Assembly (NCBI GenBank): GCA_011391125.1
Contig: JAABRE010000056.1
Span: forward strand, 1-32,097
Origin: Synechococcales cyanobacterium S06
Lineage (GTDB): Bacteria > Cyanobacteriota > Cyanobacteriia > Cyanobacteriales > JAABRE01
Reading direction: 5' to 3'
Length of the DNA: 32,097 nt
Shown piece after piece: positions 675 through 21,731 of the stretch. The notes beneath the pieces are model-generated. The model was not told the origin of the DNA. It searched no databases and saw nothing but the letters and a program-made list of their open reading frames with translations. The translations under genes and the position numbers were made by a program. The stretch's first letter is position 1, and each line of letters starts with the position of its first letter.

Positions 675-2918
675 TTAATCTTCGAGATCTTCGTCTCTTA
701 AATCACTACCTCCGCGTACTGTACCTAAGTCAATCTGTTGTCGATAATAGTCAACACTCTTAATTTCCACTTCTACGGTATCACCTAAACGGTAAGCGAT
801 GCGGTTTTTGCGACCTACTAAGCAACTATGACGGGCGCGATATTCATACCAGTCATCTTTGAGGGAGCTAACATGAACTAAGCCTTCAACAAGCCAGTCT
901 TCAATTTCGACAAAAAAGCCATAGGATTGAACTCCCGTAATTAATCCGTTGAGAATATGACCAGTTCTTGCTTTCATTTTTTCGGCTTTTTTCAATCCTT
1001 GCAGGTCTTTTTCCGCATCGAGGCCGACTTTTTCTCGGTCATTAAGTTGCAAAAGGGCGATCGCAATTTCCTGTTCTAAGTCTTCTTGAATTTCTGGTGG
1101 TAAAACGTTCCATTTAATCTCACCGTGACAGGTATTACTGCCCAAATTTACCCCGATTTTCGTGTTTTTATGACGGCGATCGCGACCATGAATAAATACT
1201 GCATTTAACACTCTTTGAATTAATAAATCGGCGTAACGTTGCCCTGGAGAAATAAAATGGACATAGCCATCTGTGTATGCTAAACCGAAGTGATTTGCGA
1301 TATGTGTGCTGTATTTAATTGGTTTTAGGGTGCTGTACAAAAGGTAGTTCAAAACTTTAGCAAAGGGCGATTTTGTAAAGCTACGGCTTAAATTTTGATA
1401 GTCAATGGGGGTTATTTCTTCTTCTGATTGTAACTGAAATTCTAAGGCTAAGTTATTGGTTAATTTTATGACATCTTCGAGTTCTTCAAAGTCTGGTTCT
1501 GTCTGTGTGCAGTAAATGCTTGGTAATTCTAAGGCCTTTAAATGATCGGCAATTAATTTACCGGTAAAAACGATTAATTCTGTTAATAATGACCGAATGG
1601 GAAGGAAAGAAGAAATGCAAATTGCTCCTAATCTTCCTTCATCTTTAAAGTTAACTTGAGCTTCGGATAAATTAATATCAAAACCCCCTCTTTTTATTCT
1701 TTGTGCCTTTAATAAAGGGCTAACTTCAAAAAATAATTTATTTAATTTGCTCGCAATAACTGCCATTTCGGGATTCGATTGCTTTTCACTTCCTAGTAAG
1801 GTTTGAACTTCAGGATAGGTTAATTGACAGTTCAGATTAATCACGCTGGGTGTCAGCTGATATTCTAACATCTGTCCCTGCTCATTAAAGTTAATTAAAA
1901 TTGACAAAGCGAAACGATCTTCTCCCTCTTTGAAGGAAATGCGATCGAGGAGATTTTCTGGTAATAAAGGTAATAATAAATCACCTAAATAAACTGCGGT
2001 TCCCCTTTTTCTTGCTTCTCTTTCTAGGTGGGATTCTGGTTTAATATAATGGGCGACATCCATAATATGAATCCCAAATTGACTGCCGTTTTCGATCGGT
2101 TCTAAAGTGAAGGCATTTTCTATTACCGAGGGACTACTTTTTTCTGGTTCGATGGCAATAGTTAATAATCCCCTTAAATCCTGTCTATTTTGAATTTCTC
2201 GCTCTGATAAATTTGTATCTAAATTGTTAGCTTCCTTGATAACTTTTTCGGAAAATCCTTGGGGTAAATCATGTTTACAGGAAACTATATCCGTATCGGT
2301 GGCAGCTTCTGCATCACTACCTAATACTTTGGTAACCTTACCAATGGGGGGATTTTGGGCAATGGGATAACGCAATACTGAGACATGAACCAAATGGTCG
2401 ATCGCCTCTTCTAAATTACCGCCATTTTGCTTGAGGCACATTTCAAAAAGCAGGCGATCATCTAAAGGAATGGCCCGATAGCTGTCTTGTTCTTTTTTTA
2501 CGGTGGCTAAAAGTGACGGATTAGCTCTTTCTAAAATGACGCTTACTTCACCCTCCGGCGATCGCCTTCTCGTGCCTTCTTTAATGATTTTTACTAACAC
2601 GCGATCGCCATTCCAAGCATTACTTAAATGACTTTCGCGAATATAAATATCATCGGCTTCTTCCGCATCTTGAATGGCAAAACAAAAACCCTTACTGGAG
2701 CAGCGTAACTTGGCTTCTACTACATCGGTTTCCTGAAGACGACGATATTTGCCACGTTCTTTGACCAATACCCCTACTCGCTCTAAAGCATCAAGAGCAA
2801 TTTCTAATTTGGCCTGAGTTTCGTCATCTTCGCAACCGAGTTTTTTTTCTAAAACCTTAGCAGCTACGAGTTTATCACCACTAAAATGAGAAAGCAGTGT
2901 AGCGATTGAAAAGTCCAT
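675..2918 (-). CDS. RNase R/II-like RNB-domain protein, Zam-like, with degenerate active site
   Basis: The 747-residue product has the RNase R architecture: an N-terminal winged-helix-like segment (1-60), a cold-shock-like region (about 65-130), an RNB domain (about 245-600) and a C-terminal S1 domain (about 658-735, GHILNGLITGVQSYGFFVEI). RNB enzymes degrade RNA 3' to 5' with two metals held by Asp residues in an IDxxDAxDxDDA motif. Here the aligned segment (256-269) reads IEPEKSSPSVIENA: the Asp cluster is gone, leaving E257, E267 and N268. The SPIRRYxDL motif has become SPGQRYADL. The fold is kept (GIHIMDVAHYI, AVYLGDLLLPLLP). It resembles the cyanobacterial Zam group (resistance to acetazolamide) in length and layout; that link is recalled, not tested. 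It may bind RNA rather than cut it. Confidence 0.85.
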   Translation of the reverse strand: MDFSIATLLSHFSGDKLVAAKVLEKKLGCEDDETQAKLEIALDALERVGVLVKERGKYRRLQETDVVEAKLRCSSKGFCFAIQDAEEADDIYIRESHLSNAWNGDRVLVKIIKEGTRRRSPEGEVSVILERANPSLLATVKKEQDSYRAIPLDDRLLFEMCLKQNGGNLEEAIDHLVHVSVLRYPIAQNPPIGKVTKVLGSDAEAATDTDIVSCKHDLPQGFSEKVIKEANNLDTNLSEREIQNRQDLRGLLTIAIEPEKSSPSVIENAFTLEPIENGSQFGIHIMDVAHYIKPESHLEREARKRGTAVYLGDLLLPLLPENLLDRISFKEGEDRFALSILINFNEQGQMLEYQLTPSVINLNCQLTYPEVQTLLGSEKQSNPEMAVIASKLNKLFFEVSPLLKAQRIKRGGFDINLSEAQVNFKDEGRLGAICISSFLPIRSLLTELIVFTGKLIADHLKALELPSIYCTQTEPDFEELEDVIKLTNNLALEFQLQSEEEITPIDYQNLSRSFTKSPFAKVLNYLLYSTLKPIKYSTHIANHFGLAYTDGYVHFISPGQRYADLLIQRVLNAVFIHGRDRRHKNTKIGVNLGSNTCHGEIKWNVLPPEIQEDLEQEIAIALLQLNDREKVGLDAEKDLQGLKKAEKMKARTGHILNGLITGVQSYGFFVEIEDWLVEGLVHVSSLKDDWYEYRARHSCLVGRKNRIAYRLGDTVEVEIKSVDYYRQQIDLGTVRGGSDLRDEDLED

Positions 2919-3862
2919 TGATTATAATCCTTTTAACTTGTGGTTTTTAATTTGGTGTTTAACCATTGTGTTGTTAATTTTCCTAGGATTAAACCTTATT
3001 TTTGCCTAGCAATGTTTAGCAAATATGGTTTAATTTCGGAATCATTGATCTGTAAATTCGAGCCTTGAGGAATCTAAAAATTGTTTTCGAGAATAATTTT
3101 AGGATCTATTACCTAGGGGAATTTAGCGGTCAGATGGTCAGTTTAAGGGTGTTTTTTTTCCCTGCTATGACTAGATACCACTTTTACTGGTAATTTCGGG
3201 TCTTAACTGTCATTCAACGCCAAGATTAAAGGACAGCTAATTACCAATATCCAGTAGGCCCTTATGTATTGGTAGTTGTTATAAAAATAATGGTACCAAA
3301 GCAAAGTTTCGGTACTATTATTTTTAATCTCCGTTCTCACGGGTAATGTTTGCCTCGTCAATGTTAGAAAAGCTTGTCATTCCAAACACACGGCCGTCTA
3401 GTCGGGCTTATTTAATGTTTAAACAGAGAGCCTAGAACTGGCGGTCATTCTCGGGTCTGATGACTTATCTAACGTAGTCCTCGAAAGACTTAGACTGCAA
3501 CTGCTCTTATTTTACAGTTATTACCGGAAAATACTAGATTTACGAGCAGTGTTCTCCAGCTAATTTGCGCTTGGTAGAGATTAGGTCAACAAGGAATGTT
3601 CCTTATTACTGAGTTATCATTTTAAACTAATTTGGTTCAAAATAGATTGTTTTTTGCCGTTAAGTAATCTATTATTTCTTTCCAACCCAGAATTTATCAC
3701 TATATAGCCATCAGTGATCAGCGATTAGCTTTACTAAAAGTAACATCCCTTCTTTTGTTGAGATTAGATCTTGGTTTGCTATTTCTGCCGATAATTTTTA
3801 TTCCTTTTCTAATTTGTGCCAAAATCAAATATATTTGTTTGCTAAATACTAATAAAAAATAA
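2919..3862. other. 944-bp gene-free interval with many hairpins; possible structured RNA
   Basis: No credible ORF is seen on either strand between the divergent RNB gene and the dsRNA-binding-like gene. The part from about 3100 to 3610 is visibly less AT-rich than other spacers here and is full of inverted repeats: 3242-3249/3267-3274 (8 bp), 3283-3300/3307-3325 (about 18 bp), 3501-3506/3544-3549 (CTGCTC/GAGCAG), 3591-3604 (AAGGAA/TTCCTT), and the palindrome TGTTTAAACA at 3416-3425. I looked for signature motifs of RNase P RNA, tmRNA, SRP RNA and group I/II introns and found none. The rest (3640-3862) is plain AT-rich sequence that would hold the promoter of the downstream gene. Confidence 0.4.
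3283..3325. terminator. Strong long hairpin, possible bidirectional terminator
   Basis: AAAAATAATGGTACC at 3283-3297 pairs with GGTACTATTATTTTT at 3311-3325 with one G-U. AAA/TTT extends the stem inward, with a bulged C and a GCAAAG loop. Both arms end in A/T runs, so either strand gives a stem followed by a U-rich tract. The stem is AT-rich, so termination is uncertain; it could be one helix of a longer RNA. Confidence 0.4.
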
Positions 3863-3874
3863 TTGTTGTTGCTT

Positions 3875-4510
3875 ATGTTAAATCAATTTCGTTCTCTTTA
3901 TCCCCAAGGTAGTTTAATTAGTGAATTACTGACCATTGATCATGGTAAATATATTGTTAGGGTTTTGGTGATGATTAATGGTATTACTTTGGCGACGGGG
4001 TTGGCCGCTGCTGAAACGGTGGAGAAAGCCGAAGATCAAGCCAGAAATCGTGCTTTAACCCTTCTTAATCTTAATCCTGAATCTGTTAATAATTCTCAGA
4101 ATCAGACTACTAAAAGTGTTAGCAAAACTACTACTAATTCTGGCCGAAATAAAAAACAAGAACCTACCAATTTGGCGACTACTAATCTTATTACTCCCAT
4201 TTCTAGTTCCCTTCCTGCTTTGGAAAATACTTTTTCCGATACCTCTAATTTAACTTCACCAATGATGGAATTAGAGTCAACCGTTGAGGCTAATTCCCCT
4301 CAAGTTCCCGAAACTACCAATCCCATTCCCCTTTTCTCTGGTGATCTTTCCGAGGCGATCGCCAAAACTCAAGTGGAACTGAAACGACTGGGTTGGACTA
4401 ATGAACAAGGTCGCGACTACTTACTACAAACCTATGGTAAGCGATCGCGTCAGTTACTTTCAGATCAAGAGTTATTGGAGTTTCTCCAGCATCTCGAAAA
4501 TCAACCCTAA
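3875..4510 (+). CDS. dsRNA-binding-motif-like protein of unknown function
   Basis: The 211-residue product has an N-terminal segment (about 18-60) ending VEKAEDQARNRALTLLNL, which fits the strand-strand-strand-helix half of a double-stranded-RNA-binding motif. A low-complexity Ser/Thr/Asn/Pro linker follows (about 65-150). A charged C-terminal helical region (about 155-205) contains LKRLGWTNEQGRDYLLQTYGKRSR. The ATG at 3875 is preferred over an in-frame TTG at 3863. It is divergent from the RNB gene across the 0.94-kb spacer. The family name is unknown to me, and the dsRNA-binding call is an inference from the helix pattern. Confidence 0.65.
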   Translation: MLNQFRSLYPQGSLISELLTIDHGKYIVRVLVMINGITLATGLAAAETVEKAEDQARNRALTLLNLNPESVNNSQNQTTKSVSKTTTNSGRNKKQEPTNLATTNLITPISSSLPALENTFSDTSNLTSPMMELESTVEANSPQVPETTNPIPLFSGDLSEAIAKTQVELKRLGWTNEQGRDYLLQTYGKRSRQLLSDQELLEFLQHLENQP

Positions 4511-11926: not shown

Positions 11927-14593
11927 CTAAAGATTAATTTCTTTTAATTCTAAACCCTGTTTAAAAATATCACTGATTGGTAACATTTTTCCTTCGGTGG
12001 TCATAAATTTATGGTCGGCCGTTGCTTTAATTTGTTTGCCATTTTCTAACTCATATAAAAATACTTCTTGTTCTCCTCTATTATGCCATTGAGCGATGGA
12101 TTGAGTGTAAATAAATCCATTTTTATCCACACTATAAACCTGACATTCCATCGCTTCTTCTACGATTTTTCCTATCGGTAAAGAACCATATTCTACGGTT
12201 AAAATTTCGGTATCAAAAGTTAAACAATATTCCGCAAAATTAACCATTTGCTCAAACAAATTTTCAGCAATGTGTTGACTTACGCCATTTTTAACTGAAC
12301 CGTCAATGAATTTTTCTTTATGTTTTTCCATTTCTGAAACTTTCTTTTTGCCCATTGCTCTACGCAACAAATCTGCTTCTCCCAATGTATATCCAGCTAA
12401 ATCTTGAGCCATTTTCATAATCTGCTCTTGATAAACCAACACTCCATAAGTTTCATTTAAAATTGGCTCTAATAATGGAGTATCATATTTAATAGCTTCC
12501 CTACCATGTTTTCTATTAATAAAAATCGGAATTAAACCTGCATCCAAAGGACCTGGCCGATATAAAGCTAAAATCGAAGAAATATCTTCTATTCCTGAAG
12601 GTTTTAAATCTTTAACTATCTGTTTCATTCCCTCAGATTCTAACTGAAATATACCTTCTAAATCCCCTTCTTCTAATAAATGATGGGTATTTTGTACATC
12701 ATCAGGAAGTTTTTTCATTGTACCTTTGGCTAATATTTGTAAAGCTCTTTTTTCTCCTAAAGGAAGTTCATCGATATCTATAGTTATGTTTTTATTTTCT
12801 TTAATTAAGTCAGCAGTTTTTTGAAGAGTGGTCAGATTTCTTAATCCTAAAAAGTCCATTTTTAGCAGTCCCAAAGATTCTAAATCTTCCATAAAATATT
12901 GGGTAATAACGGCACCTTCTTTACTCAATTCTAAGGGTACAATTTCATCTAATGGTTGGGAAGAAATGACCACTCCTGCTGCATGAATTCCCGAAGTTTT
13001 ATTAGTACCTTCGATACGAATTGCCATATCAATCCAACGACGTACAGACATACTTCCGACTTCTTCTTTTTTGTCATTATAAACACTAACGACATCATTA
13101 TCATAAGCTTGTTTAAATTCAATATCTGGCGTTTCCTCAGAAATCATGACTTTTAATTTAGCAGGTTTTCCCCTAGAAACAGGAATTAATTTAGCCATTT
13201 TATCCGTATCTTTATAGGAAATTCCTAACACTCTCCCGACATCTTTTAAGACTGCTTTTGAGGTCATTCTATTAAAAGTAATAATTTGAGCAACGTTACT
13301 TTCACCGTATTTTTGCCTCACATATTCAATCATATCATCCCGTCGATCAATACAGAAATCTGTATCAATATCGGGCATAGATTTTCGTTCAGGATTCAAA
13401 AATCGCTCAAATAATAAGCCATGATGGACAGGATCAATATTCGTAATTTTTAAAGCATAAGCTACTAATGAACCCGCAGCCGAACCTCTTCCTGGACCCA
13501 CAGGAATATCATGATCTCTCGCATATTTAATAAAATCCCAAACTACTAAGAAATAGGTAGCAAATCCCATTTGCTGCATCATTTTTATTTCATAATCTAA
13601 CCTTTCTTTATAAACATTTTCTACCTCATCTCGACTACGCACCTTTAACCTTTCTAGTAATCCTTTCCAAGTGACTTCTTCTAAATAACTATCAGGATTA
13701 TGTCCCATTGGTACTTGATAATCTGGTAACCTAGGTTCTCCTAAAATGTCATAAGGATGGATTTTATCTGCTATTTCTAAGGTATTCTTAATCGCTTCCT
13801 CGATAATTTCATCTTCTAAATGATCTCTAAATAATTCTTTCATTTCTGCGGCACTTTTTACATATTCTGTGCCACTATATCTGAGCCTTTTATCTTCTTT
13901 AATTAACTTACCTGTTTGAATACATAATAAGGCATCGTGGGCATCGACATCATTACAAGAAATAAAATGAGAATCATTTGTTGCAATAATTTTTATCTCT
14001 AAACTTTTAGCAATTTTAACTAATTGAACGTTAACTATTCGATCTTCTTTTGAACCATGATCTTGTATTTCTAAATAATAGTCATCACCAAAAACTTTTT
14101 TATACCATTTAGCAAGTTCTTTCGCTTTTTTTGTTTCCCCAGCTAAAATTAATTGGGGAACTTCTCCTCCTAAACAACCACTGGTAACAATTAACCCTTC
14201 TTTATACTCTTTTAATAGTTCTTTATTAATACAAGGCCGGGCAAAAATTCCACTTCCTTGTACACCTTTTAAACTAGAAATTGTGGTTAATTTAACTAAG
14301 TTTTTATAACCTTTAGTATTTTTTGCTAATACTACTTGATGATATTTTTTAATCTTTTTTTGTCTCTCTTTTATGTCACCATTAATAACATACATTTCGT
14401 TACCAATTATCGGTTTTATATTGCGAGTTCGACATACTTTGATTAACTCGATCGCCCCATACATCACTCCATGGTCTGTTAAAGCAACAGCAGGCATTCC
14501 TAATTCCACAACGCGATCGACTAAATCAGGAATTTGTGAAGCTCCATCCAATAAACTATAATCACTATGAATATGAAGACCGACAAAAGACAT
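11927..14593 (-). CDS. dnaE: DNA polymerase III alpha subunit, N-terminal half, fused to N-terminal split intein
   Basis: The 888-residue precursor carries the replicative polymerase N-half. A PHP domain begins at [12 protein letters not shown] (6-17), and catalytic Asp408 and Asp410 lie in MPDIDTDF. The reading continues to NFAEY at residue 789. Residues 790-888 are an N-intein: Cys at +1 ([14 protein letters not shown]), VYSVD, and the block-B motif ATADHKF. The remaining polymerase and C-intein must be encoded elsewhere (dnaE-C), and the halves join by protein trans-splicing, as in other cyanobacteria. The ATG at 14593 was chosen because GGAG precedes it and [13 protein letters not shown] is the usual N-terminus; an in-frame extension to 14638 runs into a repeat. 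Confidence 0.96.
11930..12226 (-). other. Split DnaE intein, N-fragment coding segment (99 codons)
   Basis: Ninety-nine codons from the Cys after NFAEY to the stop encode a fragment colinear with the known fast cyanobacterial DnaE N-inteins (such as that of Nostoc punctiforme, about 102 residues): [58 protein letters not shown]. The Thr and His of TADHKF are in place. The tail after DIF is a few residues shorter than in Nostoc. No homing endonuclease is present. Confidence 0.95.
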
Positions 14594-14625
14594 AAAAAAC
14601 TCCTTTTTTACATAAAATTTATATC

Positions 14626-14692
14626 GTAGGGTGGGCAATTTTTGGCTCGATGAACAAATATAATTTCAAATATTGTAAAAATTGCCCACCTA
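14626..14692. repeat. MITE-like inverted repeat with GGGTGGGCAATTTT ends
   Basis: Left end GTAGGGTGGGCAATTTTT and right end AAAATTGCCCACCTA are inverted copies around about 35 bp of AT-rich centre. It sits 33 bp upstream of the dnaE-N start, so it is probably in the 5' untranslated region or promoter. The same ends occur at 28539-28670 and 29679-29810. Confidence 0.7.
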
Positions 14693-14790: not shown

Positions 14791-15015
14791 TTAGAGTAAA
14801 GAAATAAATTCATCTACCGTTAATTCAGCGTCTCTGATAATTTTTCTTAATAAACCTTTGCCTAAATTTTTACTAGAATGAACGGGAATTGTGACTATTC
14901 GGCCGTCTTCATGTTTCATTCTAATGTGACTACCTTTTTGTCTTACCAGTTGAAAATCTATTTTTTGTAACGCATTAATAACCATTTTCCCATTAATAAT
15001 TGGTAATCGAGACAT
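14791..15015 (-). CDS. hicA: HicA family mRNA interferase toxin
   Basis: The 74-residue small basic protein has the dsRBD-like HicA fold. The catalytic His is in RQKGSHIRMKH (about 29-39), followed by TIPVHSSKNLGKGLLRKIIRDA. HicA cuts mRNA when not held by HicB. It starts 2 bp after the hicB stop. It looks intact. The antitoxin-first order and tight spacing are typical of one common HicBA layout. Confidence 0.93.
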   Translation of the reverse strand: MSRLPIINGKMVINALQKIDFQLVRQKGSHIRMKHEDGRIVTIPVHSSKNLGKGLLRKIIRDAELTVDEFISLL

Positions 15016-15017
15016 TA

Positions 15018-15233
15018 TTAAATTACCACCTTTTGAATACCAACAAATTTAGATGTCTGGATTTCTTCCTCTTCTTCCAAACACATTTCGATCACTTCTT
15101 TAATATTAGTTATTAATTCATCAATAGTTTCCCCCTGACTATAACAAGCCGTAAGTTGAGGTACTTCTCCTATAAACAAACCATCTTCATCTTGTTCAAT
15201 AAATACATAAAATTCTCGATTATTTATCCTCAT
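15018..15233 (-). CDS. hicB: HicB family antitoxin
   Basis: The 71-residue protein has the partial RNase-H-like HicB fold (FYVFIEQDEDGLFIGEVPQLTACYSQGETIDELITNIKEVIEMCLE). It neutralises HicA by covering its active site. There is no clear C-terminal DNA-binding domain, so autoregulation may need another surface. It is the first gene of the pair, 48 bp after dtd on the same strand. Confidence 0.92.
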   Translation of the reverse strand: MRINNREFYVFIEQDEDGLFIGEVPQLTACYSQGETIDELITNIKEVIEMCLEEEEEIQTSKFVGIQKVVI

Positions 15234-15281: not shown

Positions 15282-15728
15282 CTATTCTTTTTCTAAGATT
15301 AAAGTAACCGGACCATCATTAATAATATTAACCTCCATCATTGCGCCAAATTTACCAGTTTCCACCTTTAAACCGCTATTTTTTAACTTATCTATAAACT
15401 GATTATAAAGTTTTTCGGCCACATTTGGACTAGCGGAATTACTAAACGAAGGGCGACGACCTTTACGGCAATCTCCATACAGGGTAAACTGACTAACAAC
15501 CAATAATTCGCCCTTGATTTCCTGTACCGACTTTTCCCATTTATCCCCGTTTTTTTCACAGGGAAATAAACGCAAATCAAGGATTTTTCTGACCATCCAA
15601 TCAAGTTCCGTTTCGGTATCAGTAGGAGCAATTCCTACCAATAAATTTAAACCTTGTCCAATTTGGGCGACAATTTCGCCATTAATAATAACAGAAGAAG
15701 ATGTCACCCTCTGAATAATAACTCGCAT
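15282..15728 (-). CDS. dtd: D-aminoacyl-tRNA deacylase
   Basis: The 148-residue enzyme hydrolyses D-amino acids, and mischarged glycine, from tRNA. Both family motifs that form the active site across the dimer are present: SQFTLY (about 80-85) and NDGPVT (137-142). Length is standard and the first residues MRVIIQRV are typical. Confidence 0.96.
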
Positions 15729-18908: not shown

Positions 18909-18931
18909 TTTTGATAAGGAAAACTAAAAAG

Positions 18932-19192
18932 GTGCAGTTTGAATATGATTTGGTCAAAAATGAAACCAACAAAATTAAACATGGAATTGATTTTAAGGAG
19001 GCTCAAAAATTATGGAATGATCCTTTTAGATTAGAAATAGAGACTAAATCAGATTCTGAATCGAGGTTTATAATTATAGGTAAGATTGAAGATAAATATT
19101 GGTCTGCTATTATTACTTACCGTAATAATGGTATTAGAATTATCTCAGTGAGAAGAGCAAAAAATAAGGAAATAAAATATTATGAAAGCTGA
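18932..19192 (+). CDS. brnT: BrnT family ribonuclease toxin
   Basis: The 86-residue toxin has the BrnT start FEYDLVKNETNKIKHGIDFKEAQKLWND, a central IIGKIEDKYWSAIITYR and the C-terminal RIISVRRAKNKE. BrnT is a RelE-like ribonuclease. The GTG at 18932 was chosen because it gives the standard N-terminus; a TTG at 18911 would add seven residues. AAGGA lies about 11 bp upstream. It overlaps the antitoxin gene by 11 bp. Confidence 0.88.
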   Translation: MQFEYDLVKNETNKIKHGIDFKEAQKLWNDPFRLEIETKSDSESRFIIIGKIEDKYWSAIITYRNNGIRIISVRRAKNKEIKYYES

Positions 19193-19415
19193 AGAGTTAG
19201 ATAAAAAGTTTGATGAAGGTGAGGATATTCTTGATTATTGTGATTTATCTACTGCAAAACGTCCGGGTTTAGAAACTAATAATATTACCATTAATTTACC
19301 TCAATGGTTATTAAGAACTATGGAAAAGGAAGCGCAAAAAATAGGAGTTAATACTGAAACTATCATTAAATTTCGGTTAGCTGAATATTACAATCATCAA
19401 ACAATTAAGGATTAA
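19182..19415 (+). CDS. brnA: BrnA/CopG-like antitoxin
   Basis: The 77-residue protein begins with an acidic segment (EELDKKFDEGEDILDYCDLS) that would cover the toxin, and ends with a ribbon-helix-helix-like part (NNITINLPQWLLRTMEKEAQKIGVNTETIIKFRLAE) for DNA binding. The overlap with brnT and the order toxin-antitoxin fit the BrnTA system. BrnA is inferred from the partner; a generic CopG antitoxin is the alternative name. Confidence 0.82.
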   Translation: MKAEELDKKFDEGEDILDYCDLSTAKRPGLETNNITINLPQWLLRTMEKEAQKIGVNTETIIKFRLAEYYNHQTIKD

Positions 19416-19508: not shown

Positions 19509-21395
19509 TTACAGTTGGGGTACAAACTGCTCTTTTTCGGGAACAATCGTATATTCAGCGACAATCTGGCGTAATTCTTCGCCGCCAATGGTCTCTTTTT
19601 CAATTAAGAGGTCAACCAAACGGTCAATTACCTCGCGGTTATCACGAATGATTTTACGAGCAAGTTGGTGCGCTTGTTCGGCGATCACCTTTACTTGGTC
19701 ATCAATACGAGCGGCGACTTTCTCGGAATATTCGGATCGACTCATTAAGCCACCACCGAGGAAAACTTCACCACTTTGGCTTTCCAAAGAAAGCGGACCC
19801 AAATCACTCATTCCAAAACGAGTCACCATTTGACGAGCCATTCCCGAAACCATTTGCAAGTCTCCGCCAGCACCGGTGGTAACTTCATCGTAGCCGAAGA
19901 CTTCTTCTTCGGCGGCACGGCCACCTAAAGCTCCAGAAATGCGCGCCATTAATTGGGATTTACTGGTTAAACCCTGCTCCTCATTAGGTGTAAACCAAGT
20001 CAACCCTTGCGCTTGACCACGGGGAATCAAGGTGACTTTCTGCACAGGATCATGGTCTTTTAATAAAGTACCTACGATCGCATGGCCAACTTCGTGGTAG
20101 GCAATCAAACGCTTGCTCTTGCTATCAACTAAAGGAGTGCCTTCCATACCAGCAATGACGCGATCGACAGCATCATCAACTTCTAACATAGTAATCGCTT
20201 CTTTGCGACGACGAGCGGTTAAAATGGCCGCTTCGTTGAGTAAATTCGCTAAATCAGCACCACTAAAACCGGGGGTACGACGAGCGATGGCTTCTAAGGA
20301 AATTTCAGGAGCTAATTTTTTGTTACGCGCGTGAACTTCCAAAACGCCGATTCTTCCTTTAATATCAGGGGTATCCACCGTTACTTGACGGTCAAAACGA
20401 CCTGGACGCATTAACGCAGAATCAAGGACATCAGGCCGGTTAGTGGCTGCGATAATAATAATACCGGTATTACCTTCAAAACCGTCCATTTCCGTGAGTA
20501 ACTGGTTTAAAGTTTGCTCCCGTTCATCATTTCCGCCACCAATACCAGCGCCACGTTGACGGCCTACCGCATCAATTTCATCAATAAAGATGAGACAGGG
20601 AGCGTTTTCCTTAGCTTTTTTGAATAAATCGCGGACACGGGAAGCACCCACACCGACGAACATTTCCACAAATTCCGAACCAGAAATGCTAAAAAAAGGT
20701 ACACCAGCTTCACCAGCGATCGCCTTTGCCAATAAAGTCTTACCAGTTCCCGGAGGACCGACTAAAAGAACACCTTTAGGAATTTTCGCACCAACTGCGG
20801 TGAATTTTTCAGGCAGTTTCAAGAAAGTGACAACTTCCTGTAACTCCTCCTTCGCTTCCTCAATACCGGCCACATCATCAAACATAACGCCAGTTTTGGC
20901 TTCCATCATAAAACGCGCTTTGGATTTACCAAAATTCATCGCTTGGCCAGGACCCCCGGGCATATTATTAGAACGACGGAATAGGAAAAATAACGCGCCA
21001 ATTAATAAAACTGGGAAAAGCAAATTGCCCAACAAACCCCAAATTAAGCCATTACTTTGCATGGGGTGGGAATCTAAGGCAATATTCGCTTCTCTGAGTT
21101 TCGTGATTAATTCTGGGGAATTACCGGGTAAATCAACGCGTAATTTTTGTAAACGGTTGTCCAAATCAGGGTCGATCGCCTGTACAATGGCTGTGCGTCC
21201 ATTTTCGTAGAGGTCAACACTAGCAACTCTACCTCCTTCGATGTATTCGAGAAAGCGGCCGTAACTCATACGAGTGCTGGCGGTATTATTGCCCATATTT
21301 GCTTCGGTTGTTGAAAAAGTGCCTTGGAATAGGAAAAATCCAATCACCAAAGCTGGCAAAGTCCACAGTAGTAAAGTTCTCCAGGAAAATTTCAT
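19509..21395 (-). CDS. ftsH2: ATP-dependent zinc metalloprotease FtsH (FtsH2/Slr0228 type)
   Basis: The 628-residue hexameric membrane AAA+ protease has two N-terminal membrane segments (about 8-24 and 118-139) flanking a lumenal domain, Walker A GPPGTGKT (213-220), Walker B IFIDEID (269-275), the SRH region [18 protein letters not shown] and the zinc site HEVGH (434-438). The sequence start [11 protein letters not shown] and C-terminus match the Synechocystis Slr0228 type. That protein works with FtsH3 in removing photodamaged D1 during photosystem II repair; the role here is inferred from similarity. Confidence 0.96.
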
Positions 21396-21545: not shown

Positions 21546-21731
21546 ACTACCCCGACTTGCCGAATAATTGCTAAGGCCATTGCAGACCATTTAAACAAAT
21601 ATTACTGGAAACCCGTGTTTTGGACAAAAGCTTATTGCGCAATATCGGCTGGTGGAGCGCCATTAGAAGTTATTAACTCGTATATAGAAGAGCAGAAAAA
21701 AGTCGAGGATGCTTATAGTGATTCCAATTAA
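21546..21731 (+). pseudogene. IS200/IS605-type TnpA, C-terminal remnant
   Basis: The open frame from 21546 to the TAA at 21729-21731 encodes AIADHLNKYYWKPVFWTKAY followed by CAISAGGAPLEVINSYIEEQ, the end of an IS200/IS605 Y1 transposase. The HUH motif and tyrosine, which lie upstream in the intact enzyme, are missing. No start codon, accessory tnpB or recognisable element end is nearby, so this is debris. Confidence 0.7.

Follow-up and report, generated by a model that had tools for sequence, protein, structure and literature searches.

IscB, or ISC, elements were reportedly assigned to the IS200/IS605 superfamily by Kapitonov and colleagues, as cited in PMC9755519. This group is moved by a Y1 TnpA-type transposase, which uses a fixed short target and creates no duplication. 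To our knowledge, inverted-repeat-like ends are not typical of Y1 elements. The guide RNA is encoded in the 5' region of the nuclease and is required for activity, according to PMC9755519, which also states that the 5' untranslated region hits HEARO (RF02033) in 65% of these nucleases and that just a few of them were found with TnpA. In PMC9640706, the IscB guide is about 16-17 nt long and lies 5' of the scaffold, a change in the pseudoknot loop of the omega RNA abolished editing, and IscB is described as the likely ancestor of CRISPR-Cas9. Two further papers describe TnpB, which with a flank-derived guide cuts the excision junction, after which repair copies the element back (PMC11870625), and standalone omega RNAs that can function with IscB (PMC9581776, citing Altae-Tran and colleagues).

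The window, meaning the whole stretch of DNA analyzed, comprises 32,097 nucleotides from Synechococcales cyanobacterium S06. An initial annotation had described its positions 3100-3610 as a hairpin-rich block with no ORF, less AT-rich than other spacers, which might encode a new large structured RNA handled by its two RNA-related neighbor genes. The description of the block held. It contains 0 ORFs of at least 60 aa, the longest ATG-started stretch inside it being 29 aa, and its GC content is 39.3%, compared to 19.7-33.4% in the 13 other window gaps >150 bp, which were taken from a gene list made by hand. The block also folds more stably than its shuffles (z = -4.39 for the plus and -4.26 for the minus strand); for each strand, 0 of 100 shuffles reached the stability of the real sequence. 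The ~18-bp stem noted earlier corresponds to 3282-3300 pairing with 3308-3326 (19 nt, 89% complementary). The features of the locus are collected in Table 1.

Table 1. Features of the HEARO locus and its neighbors, in window positions.
Feature	Position	Strand	Basis or remark
Host neighbor, RNase R-like, outside the element	675..2918	-	RNB, OB, CSD2 and S1 domains
ORF-less IscB-group (HEARO) element, 390 bp	3162..3551	- (omega RNA orientation)	Repeated in the genome
Subterminal inverted repeat, opposite side	3187..3210	.	79% complementary to 3514-3537
Terminator-like long stem and T tract (~18-bp stem noted earlier)	3282..3326	-	Predicted stem
Small hairpin directly 3' of the scaffold	3331..3342	-	Before the iscB start in IscB-linked copies
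Omega RNA scaffold (HEARO, RF02033)	3343..3551	-	Full-length covariance match
Presumed pseudoknot, nexus loop side GCC	3440..3442; partner GGC 3352-3354	-	Modeled on PMC9640706
Subterminal inverted repeat, omega RNA side	3514..3537	.	79% complementary to 3187-3210
Presumed guide, 16 nt, from the host flank	3552..3567	-	Inferred from known anatomy
Host neighbor, slr1353-family, outside the element	3896..4510	+	NCBIfam NF058667, 200.2 bits against 100

An Rfam scan of the whole window gave a single match, RF02033, on the minus strand at 3343-3551 (97.1 bits, with the cut-off at 83; E 5.8e-19), and the alignment was complete, covering model positions 1-211 of 211. It is nearly certain that the block carries, in a repeated ORF-less element, an omega RNA of the HEARO family, which serves as the guide RNA for IscB, a Cas9-like nuclease directed by RNA. 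RNase P RNA, tmRNA, SRP RNA and a self-splicing intron had been reported as absent, and Rfam and ARAGORN agree on this, but a different known family matches; an Rfam match to a known RNA was the very outcome that the annotation had named as counting against a new RNA. Taken by itself, the omega RNA has an unremarkable folding energy (z = -1.21, with 19 of 200 shuffles equally stable) and, therefore, the excess stability of the block comes largely from stems outside the omega RNA.

The genome (4.81 Mb in 168 contigs) contains 16 HEARO matches, 11 of which are above the cut-off. Compensatory changes, proposed earlier as a check on the RNA, were found across these copies: RNAalifold predicted 24 pairs from the 16-copy alignment, and double-sided changes occur in 15 of them, a count reached by 0 of 500 shuffles. 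Double-changed cells numbered 54, compared to 16.0 in shuffles. Paired cells made up 95.1%, compared to 81.1% in shuffles and at most 44.0% for slid structures, although the slid control is biased in favor of the structure since this was derived from the same alignment on which it was scored. The "further pair types" measure was equaled by 26 of 500 shuffles. These comparative data support the predicted fold through compensatory changes across the 16 genomic copies. For the presumed GCC-GGC pseudoknot, 47 of 48 cells over the 16 copies can pair, and one of its pairs is compensated, in two related copies; helix 4 of RNAalifold takes the same 3' bases, and the alignment favors neither pairing over the other.

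Within the block, the repeated unit is 3162-3551, and 3100-3161 and 3552-3610 are flanks, for which the genome comparison gave no second match. A plasmid search with 3080-3640 as the query gave no match. The left end (window position 3551) was located in 12 copies, just before CACTGCTCG or variants of it on the minus strand, and the sequence directly outside this end differs among the 12. The other end (..ATAGCAG or variants, window position 3162) is present in most of the 11 copies listed, being missing from C9 and C81 and differing in its last bases in C5. A repeated unit, fixed ends and unrelated flanks were taken as the marks of a mobile element, and all three are seen for 3162-3551. No empty site was found for the element and, thus, bases 3162-3164 could instead belong to the target site; no clear target or target-adjacent motif was seen in the flanks of the copies. 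When the two ends of a copy were aligned locally, their similarity exceeded that of all 1000 shuffles in four of eight copies (C120, C105a, C107 and C151b), and in the others the similarity was reached by 1 (C78a), 2 (C151a), 6 (C91) and 58 (C5) of 1000 shuffles.

PF14239 matches were found for six copies (C105, C130, C78, C151, C29 and C66), each 3' of a HEARO match at a distance of 35-40 nt in five copies and 171 nt in C105. The 10 other HEARO copies, including that of the window, have no IscB-type gene just downstream. RRXRR and HNH domains are present in three IscB proteins (C78, C151 and C105), and the C78 protein scored 451.6 bits against the NCBIfam IscB model, for which the cut-off is 175. 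Long open iscB frames are found in C78 and C151, the frames of C130 and C66 are shortened, and that of C29 ends at the contig end. The two IscB-encoding copies C78 and C151 have both ends in common with the window element, in which the iscB position is occupied by a hairpin stretch of ~120 bp. With both ends shared, the window element resembles a version of an IscB element that has these ~120 bp in place of iscB. Since iscB is missing, it is classed as a non-autonomous relative of C78 and C151 and not as an IscB element proper. It resembles IscB/ISC elements in these shared ends and in containing no transposase gene, but it differs from them in being 390 bp long, in lacking iscB and in having ends with inverted similarity. 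Compared to RF02033, the likeness lies in the full-length match over the cut-off, the covarying stems and the position beside IscB in six genomic copies, whereas the window copy has the hairpin stretch instead of a following IscB gene. No nuclease ORF follows the omega RNA in the block, and the Rfam model itself needs no ORF.

Other insertions and fragments were seen among the sister copies. In the own genome (G000), right-end pieces from the ORF-less family stand alone, with no omega RNA, at C86:36885-37048 and C153:17659-17736. An insert of ~120 bp breaks the omega RNA of C81 (L079, about 15550-15670), and one like it interrupts the iscB start in C105 (L084). The ends of this insert are inverted-repeat-like (TAGTAATTCCAA.. 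/ ..TTGGAATCACTA), and it is probably another miniature element. A C/G-rich hairpin insert (GGATGTACCCCCC..) is present in the first omega RNA stem-loop of four copies, C78 (L078), C151 (L076), C107 (L082) and C111 (L093), and a similar one lies at a different place in the omega RNA of C130 (L089).

We favor the reading that the block is a 390-bp non-autonomous IscB (ISC/HEARO) insertion between host genes with an RNA usable by IscB in trans, and we give it a probability of roughly 0.65, a figure that covers the trans step too. A Y1 TnpA-type transposase acting in trans would have moved the element between the two host genes. Transcription from the flank would give an RNA that starts with the host-derived guide (3552-3567), and this RNA would fold into the scaffold and end near the hairpin at 3282-3326. 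IscB from another locus would then bind the window omega RNA, and the bound nuclease may cut the empty site after excision, leading to the element being copied back. The statement on standalone omega RNAs in PMC9581776, together with the long iscB frames of C78 and C151, makes action in trans plausible. The window copy is like those standalone omega RNAs in having no adjacent nuclease gene and IscB elsewhere in the genome and, by analogy, it may be used by IscB in trans. Seven Y1_Tnp matches were found in the genome, those of C80 and C8 being full-length transposases, and none of these loci convincingly shares the element ends (best E 0.032). The only place in the genome that matches the 16-nt guide perfectly is its own site, and one further place matches with a single mismatch. 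Allowing as many as 3 mismatches gave 193 places compared to 87 for the reversed pattern; this excess is probably an effect of composition, and no second target is claimed.

The strongest alternative is that the insertion is the same but its RNA is unmade or unused, leaving a dead miniature element that is decaying as a transposon remnant. We regard this as possible, at odds well below even. The omega RNA shows no excess conservation compared to the rest of the element: divergence over seven copies is 14.0% and 13.9%, respectively, although a gap in the alignment outside the RNA probably inflates the C5 row. No selection on the RNA is, therefore, seen, and a dead element is possible. The same reading would fit the promoter-like matches, which are at chance level (4 found and 3.4 expected), the mid-range score of the window copy among the 16 HEARO matches, and the sister copies that are truncated, interrupted or end as fragments (C81, C9, C86 and C153). 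However, the scaffold of the window copy is complete and over the Rfam cut-off, its pseudoknot bases are intact, and the genome has long-frame IscB genes, all of which argue against a dead element.

Far less probable is that the element has been domesticated to regulate the RNase R-like gene, either as its leader or from an upstream position. This gene does lie downstream of the element on the same strand, with the terminator-like hairpin between it and the RNA, but the hairpin is also found in other members of the ORF-less family at unrelated loci, a promoter-like match lies directly before the gene (2950-2921), and the RNA is missing from the spacers of relatives. When 40 relatives from this order were compared, 10 had matches to both neighbor genes on a single contig. 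In those 10, the gene pair is divergent with a spacing of about 340-2430 bp, and no spacer has an Rfam match at the gathering threshold. Conservation in relatives, which the annotation had named as a further check, was thus not seen for the insertion, which is local and appears to have no special tie to its neighbors. The named cyanobacterial record L075 has an RNase R-like protein that is 49% identical and no Rfam match there; since the second neighbor was not found in it, L075 provides no synteny evidence.

The earlier idea was that the RNase R-like and double-strand-RNA-binding-like neighbors process a new large structured RNA. In its favor, both flanking genes were linked to RNA by their annotation (for the RNase R-like gene, by domain matches), but the idea is hardly credible given the match to a known family, the 15 further copies elsewhere in the genome, the gene pair without the RNA in 10 relatives and a second neighbor that belongs to the slr1353 family and has no Pfam match. 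Of the earlier reading, the presence of a large structured RNA stands, while no support was found for tying it to the genes on either side. The RNase R-like protein itself scored 467.9 bits against the RNase_R model, under the cut-off of 597.85. An RNB domain usually has a run of acidic residues. When the RNB stretch of 675-2918 was viewed by eye, this run was not evident, which seems to fit the label "pseudo" that the gene had been given.

Most ORF-less copies of this genome carry a terminator-like hairpin, located where iscB starts in the IscB-linked copies. A terminator criterion, by which the hairpin is followed by a T-rich tail, was passed by nine of the 10 ORF-less copies compared to 0 of the six IscB-linked ones; C151b is the ORF-less copy that fails it, yet it folds a strong hairpin. 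Eight of the ORF-less copies (C120, C5, C91, C105a, C107, C81, C9 and C151b) form one family with one common hairpin, and the hairpins of C78b and C90 are unrelated. Since eight of the 10 hairpin copies come from one family, the pattern amounts to about three independent cases. That the ORF-less elements of this genome are self-contained guide-RNA genes, with iscB swapped for an intrinsic terminator and a few IscB proteins serving a set of short guide RNAs that act in trans, each with its guide taken from the host, is a doubtful proposal.

The criterion, which as run also demanded two G-C pairs, was written after the own-genome pattern had been seen and before the HEARO loci of relatives were tested. 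Among the best-scoring matches listed for the relatives, it was passed by 17 of 68 ORF-less loci, each with at least 200 nt downstream, compared to 3 of 48 IscB-linked loci. Two loci short of downstream sequence and two with IscB >250 nt away fell outside both classes. Dinucleotide shuffles passed at 9.4% for the ORF-less and 5.6% for the IscB-linked loci of the relatives, and a control stretch 300-500 nt downstream passed in 6 of 68 and 1 of 47, respectively. Stems of at least 12 pairs were not found in the tested loci of the relatives, whereas most copies of the own genome have such stems. A terminator as a general trait of ORF-less copies was dropped, the relatives showing some enrichment in a weak pattern.

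In a set of 60 relatives, HEARO was matched in 31 and PF14239 in 32. HEARO matches far outnumber PF14239 matches in several genomes (21 vs 4 in G031, 28 vs 8 in G002 and 31 vs 10 in G005) and are fewer in others (4 vs 13 in G050, 5 vs 9 in G037 and 6 vs 8 in G008). In 120 loci taken from the best-scoring HEARO matches listed, which are not a random sample and leave out 26 of 31 entries for G043 as well as three for G051 and one for G003 at contig ends, IscB lies within 250 nt in 48, farther away in two and is absent in 70. "ORF-less" here means that there was no tblastn match (E 1e-3) to the three own-genome IscB proteins, which a very divergent nuclease could escape. With 70 such loci, ORF-less omega RNAs are common in the order. 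Both the RNA family and the kind of element are known, and the window holds a new copy. Because this family is already described and is frequent here, most of the finding is ordinary; a candidate "new large RNA" is removed and is explained as a guide RNA that is mobile. Should the ORF-less copies be expressed, many guides would be available to a few IscB proteins, and nuclease and guides would be encoded apart, as in CRISPR-Cas9. With 10 ORF-less and six IscB-linked copies, this genome is a convenient place to test separate nuclease and guides.

Several other features of the window were recorded. A piece of a Y1 transposase at 21555-21695 on the plus strand (PF01797 positions 76-121) sits in an 886-bp gap downstream of an ftsH-like gene (19509-21395) and, judged by that match, is a remnant of an IS200/IS605-type element. 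A DNA polymerase III alpha fragment at 11927-14638 on the minus strand has an intein-like end that matches Intein_splicing at E 1e-5, under the cut-off of Pfam; such an end would fit the split DnaE inteins known from cyanobacteria. Two toxin-antitoxin-like pairs are also present, one of the BrnT/CopG type at 18911-19415 on the plus strand, with the CopG match just under the cut-off, and a HicA/HicB pair at 14791-15233 on the minus strand.
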